This document shows positions 34,142-39,141 of a stretch of 64,000 nucleotides of DNA, piece by piece. Positions within the stretch are counted from its first letter, which is position 1; the number at the start of each line of letters is the position of its first letter. The translations under genes and the position numbers were made by a program. This DNA comes from Alkaliflexus imshenetskii DSM 15055 (GTDB lineage: Bacteria; Bacteroidota; Bacteroidia; Bacteroidales; Marinilabiliaceae): assembly GCF_000517065.1 (NCBI RefSeq), contig NZ_KI912105.1, positions 3,435,725 to 3,499,724 of the forward strand, given 5' to 3'. The notes beneath the pieces are model-generated. The model was not told the origin of the DNA and made no database searches. It saw only the letters and a list, made by a program, of their open reading frames with translations.

Positions 34142-35146
34142 TTATTCGGCATGTTCGGCCAACCAGCGTTCCGCATCAATGGCAGCCATACATCCTGAGC
34201 CGGCAGCTGTAACGGCCTGACGGTAAATCGGGTCTTGAACGTCGCCACAGGCAAACACGCCGGGCACGTTGGTTTTGGCACTGCCGGGCACTGTTTTGAT
34301 GTAACCCACATTATCCAACTCCAGATAGTTGCTGAATATGTCTGAATTTGGCTTGTGACCAATTGCCAGGAAGAAACCATCAATTTTGATTTTCACCTCT
34401 TCCTCTTCGGGGGTACCTTTTTTCTTCACCAGCACAGCGCCTTCAACCACGCCATCGCCAAAAAGTCCTTGGGTTTGGTGCTCCCAAAGAATCTCAACGT
34501 TTTTGGTTTTGAATACCCGCTCCTGCATCACTTTTGAGGCGCGCAGTTCGTTACGACGAACGATTAGGTACACTTTGTTACAAAGTGCTGAAAGGTAAAG
34601 GGCTTCTTCGGCGGCTGTGTCGCCACCGCCAACTACTGCCACATCTTTTCCGCGATAGAAAAAGCCGTCGCAGGTGGCGCAGGCCGATACGCCGCCGCCG
34701 GCATATTTGGCTTCATCTTCCAGACCCAGGTACTTGGCTGTTGCTCCTGTGGCAATAATTACGGCTTCGGCTTCAATGATTTTTTTATCGTCGATGGTGA
34801 TTTTAAACGGACGCTGCGAAAGGTCGGCTTTGGTGGCCAGTCCCCAACGCACCGAGGTGCCAAAACGCTCAGCTTGCTTTTTGAGATCTTCCATCATTTC
34901 GGGACCGGTAATTCCGGTGGGATATCCGGGGAAGTTTTCTACTTCGGTGGTGGTGGTAAGCTGACCGCCCGGCTGTAAACCTTCATACATTACCGGTGAG
35001 AGGTTGGCACGTGCGGCATAAATGGCAGCTGTATATCCTGCCGGTCCTGAACCTATAATCAGAACCTTAACTTTTTCAATATCAGTAATCTCTTTTTCTT
35101 GATTAGAACCTTTGTCAAGGTTATCCATTTTTCCAAAAAGCGCCAT
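34142..35146 (-). CDS. trxB: Thioredoxin reductase (NADPH type)
   Basis: 334 residues. FAD-binding GSGPAGYTAAIYAARA (~32-47), redox-active C156-A-T-C159, a second Rossmann motif VVGGGDTAAEEA (171-182), and VRRNELR (196-202), equivalent to the HRRxxxR motif that binds the NADPH phosphate. FAD closing motif near GVFACGDVQD. The N-terminus carries ~23 extra, charged residues before the fold (no later ATG is available). It keeps thioredoxin reduced in the cytosol and contrasts with the second reductase at 37588, which lacks the basic motif. Confidence 0.93.
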   Translation of the reverse strand: MALFGKMDNLDKGSNQEKEITDIEKVKVLIIGSGPAGYTAAIYAARANLSPVMYEGLQPGGQLTTTTEVENFPGYPTGITGPEMMEDLKKQAERFGTSVRWGLATKADLSQRPFKITIDDKKIIEAEAVIIATGATAKYLGLEDEAKYAGGGVSACATCDGFFYRGKDVAVVGGGDTAAEEALYLSALCNKVYLIVRRNELRASKVMQERVFKTKNVEILWEHQTQGLFGDGVVEGAVLVKKKGTPEEEEVKIKIDGFFLAIGHKPNSDIFSNYLELDNVGYIKTVPGSAKTNVPGVFACGDVQDPIYRQAVTAAGSGCMAAIDAERWLAEHAE

Positions 35147-36328: not shown

Positions 36329-37021
36329 TTATCCTTTTTCGGCAATTTCTTCAAGCAATGGCCGGTTTAGTATATGGATATGTTTCTCTTCCAGTTTCAG
36401 AATGCCGTCTCTTTCAAGAGACTTGAGGAGTTTAACCGCACTTTCTGTTGATATACCTGCAAAATCACCTAGCTCTTTGCGGGTGAGATGTGAAAACAGG
36501 TCATAAGCGCTAAACTCATCGCTGCTGAGGTATAACAAGGCTCCCGCCAATCTGCCATTCATCTGTTTATACATCAGGTTGCGGATGCTGCCAAAAAGCA
36601 TCTGGTTTTGACCGCAATACTTACGAATAATGTTAAAAGCAAATTGTCCGTTAGTCTGTATGAGTTTTTCAATGGTTTGTTTTTCAACTAAAAAAGCCTG
36701 TGTATCAGTAAGTGCAATGGTGGTATAGTTAAAGGTGTTTTTCCCGAAAACGGTCGATAATCCAACAAATTCGCCCTCTTTAACCAGTCGCAGATTGAAG
36801 TTTTTATCTCCTTCCTCCAGGTGTTGTTTGGCTATTCCCTTTACAATGAAAAGGATGTAGGATGCAAATGTGCCTTGTTTGGTGAGGTTTTCGCCTTTTC
36901 GAAACAGTACTTGCGTTTTACTCTCTCTCACCAAATCGAGTTCGGCACCTGCCAGCAGGTGAAAGCATGGAGCGTTTACATCGCATATAAAGTCGTTGTC
37001 TTGTTCCTGAATGGTTCTCAT
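36329..37021 (-). CDS. Crp/Fnr-family transcription regulator
   Basis: 230 residues: cyclic-nucleotide-binding-like beta-barrel (~25-120, with LFRKGENLTKQGTFASYILFIVKG), dimer helix (~120-155), and winged helix (~175-215; RKELGDFAGISTESAVKLLKSLERDGIL). The recognition helix keeps the Glu that contacts the GA/TC of CRP/FNR half-sites. Cysteines at C13, C19 and C136 are reminiscent of FNR (N-terminal pair plus one distal), but one expected N-terminal Cys is missing, so an Fe-S cluster cannot be assumed. The divergent thioredoxin operon has a perfect TTGATnnnnATCAA site, the probable target. Confidence 0.88.
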   Translation of the reverse strand: MRTIQEQDNDFICDVNAPCFHLLAGAELDLVRESKTQVLFRKGENLTKQGTFASYILFIVKGIAKQHLEEGDKNFNLRLVKEGEFVGLSTVFGKNTFNYTTIALTDTQAFLVEKQTIEKLIQTNGQFAFNIIRKYCGQNQMLFGSIRNLMYKQMNGRLAGALLYLSSDEFSAYDLFSHLTRKELGDFAGISTESAVKLLKSLERDGILKLEEKHIHILNRPLLEEIAEKG

Positions 37022-37076: not shown

Positions 37077-37109
37077 ATTTGCATCAATAAAAAAGTTGAT
37101 GCAAATCAA
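37077..37109. promoter_or_regulatory. FNR-type palindrome within a larger inverted repeat
   Basis: TTGAT-GCAA-ATCAA (37096-37109) matches the FNR consensus exactly. An 11-bp arm ATTTGCATCAA (37077-37087) is the perfect reverse complement of 37096-37106, spaced by 8 bases, so a second half-site is present. The box centre lies 81 bases before the regulator's start codon and 126 before the thioredoxin's, suiting control of both divergent genes. Confidence 0.7.
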
Positions 37110-37228: not shown

Positions 37229-37585
37229 ATGTTGTACACAAATTTAAAACACATCGACACTGCCGAGCAGCACGCAAAAATTATCAATGAGAACGAGAAT
37301 GTTATGGTATGTTGCGGTAGAATGGGTCCCATGTGCATTCCTGTTTATGGAATTATGGAAGAGTTGGAGGGCGAGTATGCACACGTGAAATTCTTCGATA
37401 TGGCATTTGACAGCCCCGAAGCCCATGTAATACGAAACCTGCCTGAAGTACGCGGTTTTATGGGAATTCCGTTCACCATTTACTACAAAAACGGTAAAGT
37501 GGTTAAAGCTACATCGAGCATTCAATCGCGCGATCAGGTGACTTCTATCTTGAATGAGAAATTTGGCGAACCTGTAAACGCATAA
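37229..37585 (+). CDS. Thioredoxin-like protein with unusual C-x6-C active site
   Basis: 118 residues, cytosolic, thioredoxin-fold length. In place of WCGPC it has C28-C29-G-R-M-G-P-M-C36: C36 aligns with the second Cys of CxxC, the position of the first is Gly33, and C28/C29 lie 7-8 residues upstream. The cis-proline loop is kept (GIP, P81), and the strand pattern (VKFFDMAFD, FTIYYKNGK) is that of thioredoxin. It is 2 bp upstream of a thioredoxin-reductase-like gene, so the two are almost certainly partners. The substrate is unknown; peroxide or metal/thiol stress roles are possible. Confidence 0.82.
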   Translation: MLYTNLKHIDTAEQHAKIINENENVMVCCGRMGPMCIPVYGIMEELEGEYAHVKFFDMAFDSPEAHVIRNLPEVRGFMGIPFTIYYKNGKVVKATSSIQSRDQVTSILNEKFGEPVNA

Positions 37586-37587
37586 TC

Positions 37588-38556
37588 ATGGCACAAAGCA
37601 ATCATTACGATGCAATAGTGATTGGGGGCGGACCCGCAGGGCTCACGGCAGGTATTTACCTCTCGAGAGCCCGGGTGAAAACCCTCGTCCTGAGCGAAGG
37701 CACCGTGGGAGGCCAAATGGTGCTTACCCACGAAATTGCCAACTATCCCGGAGTGGAATCAATCAACGGATACATGCTGGGAAACATCATGAAGAACCAG
37801 GCTCAGCGGTTTGGTTGTGACATCAAATCCAATATCGGCATCGAACGCATGGAGCTGAATGGCGAACAGAAGCAGGTGCTGCTCTCAAACGGTGCTATTT
37901 ATAGTGCCGATGCATTGGTTTTAACACCGGGTGGCAGAAGTCGTACTTTGGGAGTTCCCGGTGAGGAGGATTACAAAGGCAAGGGCATCTCTTACTGCGC
38001 TACCTGTGATGGTGATTTCTTTACTGGTAAGGAGATTGTGGTGGTGGGTGGCGGCAATTCAGCACTCGAAGAGGCTGTGTCGCTCACCAAATATGCCACA
38101 AAAGTAACAATTGTGCATCAGTTTGACCATTTTCAGGCCTTCGAACATGCAGTGGAAGAGGCGCGCGCCAATCCCAGGATAAATTTTGTCATGGAATCAA
38201 AGGTGACTGCGTTCTATGGTGGTGAAAACCTCGAAGCTGTGGATATTACAGATTTGAAATCAGGAAAGGTGGAGCGGTTCAAAACCGATGGAGTGTTTGT
38301 ATTTATTGGTTACGTGCCCAACACCGAATTTCTGAAAGGAAAACTGAACTTGAACAAGTGGGGTGAAATTGTGGTCAGCTCTGATATGGAAACAAGCCTT
38401 CCGGGCGTTTTTGCTGCCGGCGATGCCATAGCCAAACGCTATCGTCAGGTAACTACTGCTGTGGGCGATGGCACGGTGGCTGCGCTGGCGGCTTCCAATT
38501 ATATCCATCAGATGAAAATGAAAAAGAAAGCACCACTCGAAAATGTGCTTGCTTAA
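37588..38556 (+). CDS. TrxB-like flavoprotein lacking the NADPH-binding basic motif
   Basis: 322 residues. FAD motif IGGGPAGLTAGIYLSRA (12-28), redox pair C137-A-T-C140 followed by DGDFF, second Rossmann motif VVGGGNSALEEA (152-163), and GVFAAGDAI near the C-terminus. Where NADPH-using TrxB has HRRxxxR, this protein reads HQFDHFQA (~177-184) with no arginine. It probably uses NADH, a flavodoxin/ferredoxin or another donor. Translationally coupled with the C-x6-C thioredoxin (2 bp apart), both under a probable FNR-type box. Confidence 0.86.
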   Translation: MAQSNHYDAIVIGGGPAGLTAGIYLSRARVKTLVLSEGTVGGQMVLTHEIANYPGVESINGYMLGNIMKNQAQRFGCDIKSNIGIERMELNGEQKQVLLSNGAIYSADALVLTPGGRSRTLGVPGEEDYKGKGISYCATCDGDFFTGKEIVVVGGGNSALEEAVSLTKYATKVTIVHQFDHFQAFEHAVEEARANPRINFVMESKVTAFYGGENLEAVDITDLKSGKVERFKTDGVFVFIGYVPNTEFLKGKLNLNKWGEIVVSSDMETSLPGVFAAGDAIAKRYRQVTTAVGDGTVAALAASNYIHQMKMKKKAPLENVLA

Positions 38557-38724: not shown

Positions 38725-39141
38725 ATGAGTCCTTTCTATTATGGCCTTTTGGCCTTTATCTTGATTTTTGTGGGGTATGCTTATCTAAACTACCGCCGTG
38801 TAAAGTATTTGGCATCACTCGCTGATAGCAAAAAAATAGCTAACTTAACGGATGATGATTTTAAGAAGATGACTTCATCTGGTGTTGTGCTCATTGATTT
38901 TTGGGCATCGTGGTGTATGCCTTGTAAGATGATGGCGCCGGTGCTTAGTCAGGTGGCCGATTCTCTGGATGGGGAAGCTTTGGTAGCAAAGGTTAATGTG
39001 GAAAATCACCAGCACCTGGCGGAGCACCATAAAATCAAAAGCATCCCAACATTGATTTTGATGAAAGATGGGAGGGAGGTGGAGCGTTTTGTGGGGGTGA
39101 AAAGCAAAGATTTTCTGTTGGACAGAATAAAAAAAATGTAG
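38725..39141 (+). CDS. Membrane-anchored thioredoxin
   Basis: 138 residues. One N-terminal transmembrane helix (3-21, PFYYGLLAFILIFVGYAYL) followed by a basic stretch (NYRRVK), then a canonical thioredoxin domain with active site W-C-M-P-C (~62-66), VKVNVENH and the cis-Pro loop KSIPTL. The positive-inside rule suggests the domain faces the cytoplasm, or that the helix is an uncleaved signal and the domain is periplasmic; sequence alone does not settle this. It sits 168 bp after the TrxB-like flavoprotein gene and may share its redox network. Confidence 0.85.
   Translation: MSPFYYGLLAFILIFVGYAYLNYRRVKYLASLADSKKIANLTDDDFKKMTSSGVVLIDFWASWCMPCKMMAPVLSQVADSLDGEALVAKVNVENHQHLAEHHKIKSIPTLILMKDGREVERFVGVKSKDFLLDRIKKM

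Follow-up and report, generated by a model that had tools for sequence, protein, structure and literature searches.

The TR3/Trx3 pair of Desulfovibrio vulgaris combines an NADH-type reductase with a non-canonical thioredoxin and, in the part of the paper available to us, is an additional reductase-thioredoxin pair that is dedicated, lacks the HRR residues and coexists with a classical system (PMC5627308). The available text on Clostridioides describes TrxA3 and TrxB3 of the grd operon, where a thioredoxin with an atypical motif is devoted to one pathway and has its own reductase gene adjacent (PMC10880999). E. coli CnoX (YbbN), according to the accessible part of its description, has a thioredoxin fold from which the first active-site cysteine is absent, and another conserved cysteine (PMC6282202).

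Here we describe a pair of genes that is like each of these in some respects. It lies in a 64,000-nucleotide stretch of DNA from Alkaliflexus imshenetskii DSM 15055 (the window), and it encodes a small thioredoxin-fold protein, TrxL, and a thioredoxin-reductase-like flavoprotein, TR' (Table 1). Judged from sequence, the two would form a thioredoxin system in which the cofactor site is altered and the cysteine pair relocated. This strongly conserved, disulfide-reducing pair is apparently undescribed, as we found no description of it in titles and abstract openings of the openly licensed literature, where long result lists were covered in part, and no match to its literal motif strings in that literature. 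An earlier note on this DNA had placed the two genes 2 bp apart and a standard TrxB 2.4 kb away, and both statements were borne out by the coordinates.

Table 1. Positions of the TrxL/TR' genes and associated features in the window
Feature	Position	Strand	Description
Canonical TrxB	34142..35146	-	CATC, VRRNELRA; 383.9 bits, above the TIGR01292 cut-off of 343.45; reference, outside the unit
Crp/Fnr-type regulator	36329..37021	-	Divergent; N-terminal C-x5-C (CDVNAPC)
Promoter element	37084..37109	.	TCAA-N7-GTTG-N7-TCAA, includes an exact FNR-like TTGAT-N4-ATCAA at 37096-37109
TrxL	37229..37585	+	118 aa, thioredoxin-fold; GPMC replacing CGPC, C29-x6-C36, Pro81 at the cis-Pro place
TR'	37588..38556	+	322 aa, thioredoxin-reductase-like flavoprotein; CATC, GGGNSALEE, HQFDHFQA replacing HRRxxxR
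Altered adenosine-ribose loop	38104..38139	+	TR' codons 173-184 (VTIVHQFDHFQA)
Membrane-anchored thioredoxin	38725..39141	+	WCMPC; N-terminal hydrophobic helix, then positive charges

The TrxL cysteines and fold

TrxL had been read as a C-x6-C thioredoxin that lost the first cysteine of CxxC and has C28, C29 and C36. The protein contains the stretch ...ENVMVCCGRMGPMCIPVY..., in which all three cysteines are present and Gly33 stands at the first CxxC position. To this sequence we added an alignment of 110 TrxL rows, 80 of them from a scan partly seeded with CGRMGPMC (one of its two seed patterns) and 30 from motif-free searches; because of that seed the motif-free rows were also counted separately. 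One motif-free row (L143) is the window TrxL itself, and the 110 rows, which include close relatives, are not all independent. An apparent remnant in genome G267 and weak matches in eight genomes of one genus, described below, are outside these counts. C29 was present in 109/110 rows and C36 in 110/110, the seeded rows giving 79/80 and 80/80 and the motif-free rows 30/30 for both residues. The single exception at C29 is a Leu in locus L081, where TR' and the anchored thioredoxin are still kept. Residue 28 is Cys in just 53 of the 110 rows (24/80 seeded and 29/30 motif-free) and otherwise Ile, once Val, and for that reason C28 was rejected as the active cysteine. Since C29 and C36 are near-invariant and C28 is optional, the conserved pair is C29-x6-C36, and it is in this narrower form that the C-x6-C reading stands. 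The family has no CxxC motif; G33, like C36, is found in all 110 rows (GPMC).

No family in Pfam or NCBIfam, PF00085 and TIGR01068 included, matched TrxL at 1e-3, and matches to PDB sequences were weak (best 0.0024 with the single sequence and 1.9e-4 with a profile). In the AlphaFold model (pLDDT 92.9) a single thioredoxin fold covers residues 4-113, and the best structural match was 2o8v_B (Z 15.3, rmsd 1.7, 105 aligned); the absence of a family from the list of structures was not counted as exclusion. Pro81, at the predicted cis-Pro place, is found in 110/110 rows. In the model C29 lies near the end of strand 24-30 and C36 near the start of helix 34-47, and by hand alignment C29 corresponds to Trp28 and C36 to the resolving Cys35 of E. 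coli thioredoxin. Neighbouring strand residues face opposite sides, which would account for the tolerance of Ile at residue 28. The sequence T-x-S-I-Q after the last strand is almost invariant (T95 in 109, S97 in 110, I98 in 109 and Q99 in 110 of the 110 rows), and in ordinary thioredoxins the stretch after the last strand is used in partner contacts. There were no middling matches to TrxL: E-values leave a gap from 2e-46 to 6.5e-7 in a sample of 296 genomes of the phylum, and from 1e-55 to 1e-10 in the samples of 395 genomes of the same class as the window genome and 197 genomes of the class of genome G188.

The TR' cofactor site

CATC and HQFDHFQA, the two reductase motifs named in the earlier note, are both found in TR', the first as part of CATCDGDFF. 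TR' matches Pyr_redox_2, and its model (pLDDT 89.3) matched thioredoxin reductases over the full length, best 7jyp (Z 37.9, rmsd 2.9, 301 aligned), with 36-41% identity to the six best-ranked PDB chains. The score of 333.6 bits is just under the curated TIGR01292 cut-off, and automatic annotation may therefore assume the wrong donor for this subgroup. TR' has just two strong matches in the window genome, at 711.9 and 174.3 bits, and the one that follows scores 28.9.

We aligned 84 TR' sequences, which like the TrxL rows include close relatives, with 9 reductases from natural fusions, 8 canonical TrxBs and 1 AhpF. The TR' rows were chosen by gene position and similarity cluster and not by the HQFD motif, with the exception of L111, which was grouped with TR' because of its HQFD; outside the 84 are L010 (contig end), L013, L016, L019 (HQFD) and the partial L112 (HQFD). 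The CxxC cysteines C137 and C140 and the docking residues G131, G133, F144 and F145 are found in 84/84. The pyrophosphate loop GGGxxAxE is also intact, with G154, G156 and A159 in 84/84 and E161 in 83/84. At the HRRxxxR motif, all three arginines are present in 8/8 canonical TrxBs, while the 84 TR' sequences never have an Arg there; in TR' the three places are taken by Q178, F179 and Q183. The replacement starts with HQFD in 82/84, the exceptions being HMLDAFQA (L057) and SQNAHFKA (L064). A quick tree placed TR' apart from the canonical TrxBs; its branches are long, and joins between groups were not used.

These comparisons bear on the claim of a non-NADPH reductase. By sequence alone, the lack of the 2'-phosphate arginine in 84/84 supports a TR' that is not built for NADPH. 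The further suggestion of a donor other than a pyridine nucleotide is not supported as a strong claim, given the intact GGGNSALEE loop. With the arginines replaced and the pyrophosphate loop intact, TR' would most likely bind a pyridine nucleotide, the donor being NADH, or NADH and NADPH without selectivity. AhpF prefers NADH, and where the one AhpF compared has a Glu there is no acidic residue in TR', which has H177; NADH preference is therefore not positively signalled.

Distribution, gene neighbourhood and regulation

At least 580 related stretches were found in named genomes, and the best 80 of these were retrieved as loci. By their titles 77 are Bacteroidota, two are 'uncultured bacterium' and one is TM6; the closest among the matches listed were two Geofilum, with 91-92% identity. 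The record labelled candidate division TM6 (L058) is probably misbinned, because its TR' is identical to that of the Bacteroidetes MAG L054. In the 296-genome sample, TrxL (at least 64% identity) and TR' (E<=1e-90) occurred in the same 16 genomes, and a TR' gene, whole or cut, adjoins TrxL in 17/17 loci. In genome G216 the full TR' and TrxL lie on different contigs, and the gene next to TrxL is truncated where its contig ends. Among the best 80 of the at least 580 stretches, TR' adjoins TrxL in 68 of the 74 loci that have at least 1.6 kb downstream. The six non-adjacent loci are L082, with TR' elsewhere in the genome; L068 and L097, near which lies a fusion of an HQFD-type reductase with a CPPC thioredoxin, in the L068 genome the sole match at E<=1e-30; L094, whose genome has a fusion and a canonical TrxB; and L089 and L106, whose genomes, both MAGs of uncertain completeness, have canonical TrxB only at E<=1e-30.

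TrxL was present in 1/395 genomes of its own class, that one being the window genome, in 14/61 relatives and in 22/197 genomes of the class of G188, and its distribution is therefore patchy. Genome G267 (L021) has an apparent collapsed remnant, in which the start of TrxL is joined to the end of TR' as if by a deletion. Eight genomes of one genus of the same class (L022-L029) gave weak TrxL matches (E 6e-6 to 5e-4), mostly in longer proteins that by eye resemble rhodanese-thioredoxin fusions. In viral contigs 37 stretches matched a seed pattern and none was a relative, and no TrxL relative was found in plasmids; a mobile or viral origin was rejected on these grounds.

The unit usually extends beyond the pair, to a divergent Crp/Fnr regulator, a recurrent promoter dyad and the anchored thioredoxin, none of which the earlier note mentions. 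A Crp/Fnr gene was found within 6.5 kb in 60 of the 80 best loci (of at least 580), and in 55 of the 80 it is upstream, divergent and within 2 kb. An N-terminal cysteine-pair pattern occurs in the first 40 residues of 47/55 relatives of the regulator, and it is possible that this pair is a thiol or iron-sulfur sensor. The Crp/Fnr regulator may bind the putative site between the divergent genes. The pattern TCAA-N(4-8)-GTTG-N7-TCAA was found in 20/49 divergent intergenic regions of at most 260 bases, the window included, and in none of 300 mononucleotide-shuffled sets; the 20/49 count is descriptive, because the pattern was derived from the same regions and some of these are close relatives. 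The strict FNR box TTGAY-N4-RTCAA was rejected as the shared operator in favour of this looser dyad, as it was present in just 2/56 intergenic regions.

The membrane-anchored thioredoxin downstream of TR' probably belongs to the unit as well, next to TrxL and TR'. A CxxC thioredoxin of one cluster was found within 6.5 kb in 55/80 of the best loci (of at least 580), and within 2.6 kb downstream of TrxL in 54/80. By a simple hydropathy rule 51 of 55 thioredoxins of the cluster (the 55 include that of the window) have a hydrophobic N-terminal helix, and the positive charge after the helix is greater in 45 and equal in 6, which predicts a thioredoxin domain on the cytosolic side. A natural fusion of a CPPC thioredoxin with an HQFD-type reductase lies near TrxL in 6/80 of the same best loci (L068, L078, L090, L097, L101 and L108, 422 aa in these six), and was also found in L118, L120 and L121. 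The nine fusion rows correspond to eight genes, the L118 gene being that of L068; HQFD is present in 8/9, and L121 has QQLPYLTA. Partial correlations of distance matrices, from 28 of the 80 loci, were 0.39 for TrxL with TR' given the regulator, 0.43 for the regulator with TR' given the thioredoxin, and 0.56 for TR' with the anchored thioredoxin. Mirror-tree support for TrxL-TR' coupling in these 28 loci was no better than background.

Other neighbours within 6.5 kb of TrxL in the best 80 of the at least 580 stretches were OsmC (23), DUF302 (22), a 4Fe-4S polyferredoxin-like protein (14), a thioredoxin-glutaredoxin (10), an SQR-like protein (9), a 79-aa protein (8), a YeeE-type sulfur-transport protein (7), a Cpn10-like protein (7), an arsenite-methyltransferase-like protein (6) and SLAC1 (6). 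These are raw counts with no control neighbourhood and do not express enrichment, and they are lower bounds because many loci are cut by contig ends. Each name comes from one representative per cluster, and the SQR-like and arsenite-methyltransferase-like proteins score below the curated cut-offs. Among the six window proteins scanned there was no OsmC, DUF302 or sulfur transporter. By eye, five loci of distant members of the phylum (L007, L009, L011, L012 and L018) have a small glutaredoxin-like and/or GroES-like gene beside TrxL.

Possible function and comparison with known systems

The explanation that we favour, with about an even chance of being right, is an accessory thioredoxin system in which a pyridine-nucleotide reductase, most likely using NADH, serves the anchored thioredoxin and TrxL. 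Such a system would stand under its own Crp/Fnr regulator, patchily distributed in the phylum and beside the normal TrxB system. TR' would be a genuine flavin disulfide reductase: the pyridine nucleotide would reduce its FAD, and the FAD would then reduce C137-C140 (CATC), the reduced pair swinging out to reduce a docked thioredoxin. Its substrates would be TrxL and the membrane-anchored CxxC thioredoxin encoded downstream. Of the C29/C36 pair in TrxL, one residue may make a mixed disulfide or persulfide that the other resolves. The task of the system is probably thiol repair or the handling of reactive sulfur or peroxide species close to the membrane, and perhaps its role is in stress or sulfur chemistry. 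If NADH is indeed the donor, the system would be coupled to the catabolic NADH pool.

A bolder version, which we propose tentatively and which has well under an even chance, is that the redox centre of TrxL has moved: C29-x6-C36 would cycle between dithiol and disulfide, or C36 would carry a persulfide, and with its own NADH-dependent reductase lineage and a redox-responsive Crp/Fnr regulator the pair would form a circuit apart from the NADPH thioredoxin pool. If this is right, a thioredoxin fold could hold a redox pair served by a reductase in another form than CxxC, and there would be bacteria whose two thioredoxin circuits draw on different cofactor pools. With at least 580 related stretches and its lack of a Pfam or NCBIfam match, TrxL is a protein family in which these ideas can be tested.

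Whether TrxL is the sole or chief substrate of TR' is uncertain, because a CxxC thioredoxin so often follows, TR' has kept its docking residues, CPPC thioredoxins are fused to HQFD-type reductases, and the distance test does not favour the pairing of TrxL with TR'. The last three of these features would also fit a different division of labour, in which TR' reduces the anchored CxxC thioredoxin only and TrxL is a CnoX-like accessory that binds clients or carries sulfur, making stable mixed disulfides or persulfides through C36 or C29. The best distance correlation is indeed that of TR' with the anchored thioredoxin, and in three loci without an adjacent TR' (L082, L094, L106) TrxL is still near the anchored thioredoxin. 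In the available part of the CnoX work, the first cysteine is called absolutely required for thioredoxin activity, and the SXXC CnoX is no oxidoreductase and yet makes mixed disulfides through another cysteine (PMC6282202). However, TrxL and TR' are found in the same 16/296 genomes, and in the best 80 loci (of at least 580) TR' adjoins TrxL in 68/74 as against 54/80 for the thioredoxin downstream; moreover, TrxL keeps another near-invariant cysteine beside the old active site, where the strand ends. We regard this explanation as unlikely, though it deserves to be taken seriously.

We consider improbable, and more so than the CnoX-like role, that TR' takes its electrons from ferredoxin or another non-nicotinamide donor, in the manner of the ferredoxin-dependent flavin thioredoxin reductases (FFTR) or DvTRi, which would couple thiol repair to low-potential anaerobic metabolism. 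TR' lacks the 2'-phosphate arginine and has no clear acidic replacement for it, 14 of the 80 best loci (of at least 580) have a 4Fe-4S polyferredoxin-like gene no more than 6.5 kb away, and some named carriers, such as Proteiniphilum and Geofilum, are anaerobes or facultative anaerobes. However, clostridial ferredoxin-type reductases are without both nucleotide motifs in the portion of the text available (PMC10880999), whereas G154, G156 and A159 are found in every one of the 84 TR' sequences, and the pyrophosphate motif that the accessible text calls highly degenerate in TRi (PMC5627308) is intact in TR'. NADH is the simpler alternative, because TR' keeps a loop that is absent from ferredoxin-type and degenerate in TRi-type reductases.

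A decayed copy of the ordinary thioredoxin system, without a role of its own, is a hardly credible account of the pair and was rejected: a lost catalytic cysteine and cofactor motif are the expected look of decay in one genome, and G267 has its apparent remnant, but the motifs are near-invariant over 84 TR' and 110 TrxL rows, gene order, regulator and promoter element are conserved, and the shared 16/296 genomes and a canonical TrxB in the window genome uphold the earlier view of a parallel pathway.

Returning to the preferred reading, an accessory system with a pyridine-nucleotide reductase, one of the closest known systems is the NADPH-dependent low-molecular-weight thioredoxin reductase (TrxB, TIGR01292), which shares with TR' the fold, FAD domain, CATC, GxG/FF docking residues and GGGxxAxE; TR' differs in having none of the HRRxxxR arginines, in scoring below the curated cut-off and in standing separate in the quick tree. 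FFTR and DvTRi are like TR' in their thioredoxin-reductase fold, CxxC and lack of HRRxxxR. TR' was rejected as an FFTR because FFTR, in the available text, is without both GxGxxA and HRRxxxR (PMC10880999) and TR' keeps GGGNSA, and as a DvTRi because DvTRi is described, in the part available, as having TQ/NGK replacing HRRD and a degenerate loop (PMC5627308), where TR' has HQFD in 82/84 and an intact loop. On the thioredoxin side, CnoX has a C-terminal TPR domain, while TrxL is a lone 118-aa domain whose gene adjoins that of a reductase. TrxA3 keeps CxxC (GCEPC) and TrxB3 keeps GxGxxA and HRRxxxR, as far as the accessible text describes them (PMC10880999), unlike TrxL and TR'. The D. vulgaris pair is likewise a dedicated second system, but the docking positions of TR3 are given as CxQ and mainly Pro in the part of the paper available (PMC5627308), and TR' instead has GxG and FF in 84/84, which places it outside that group.
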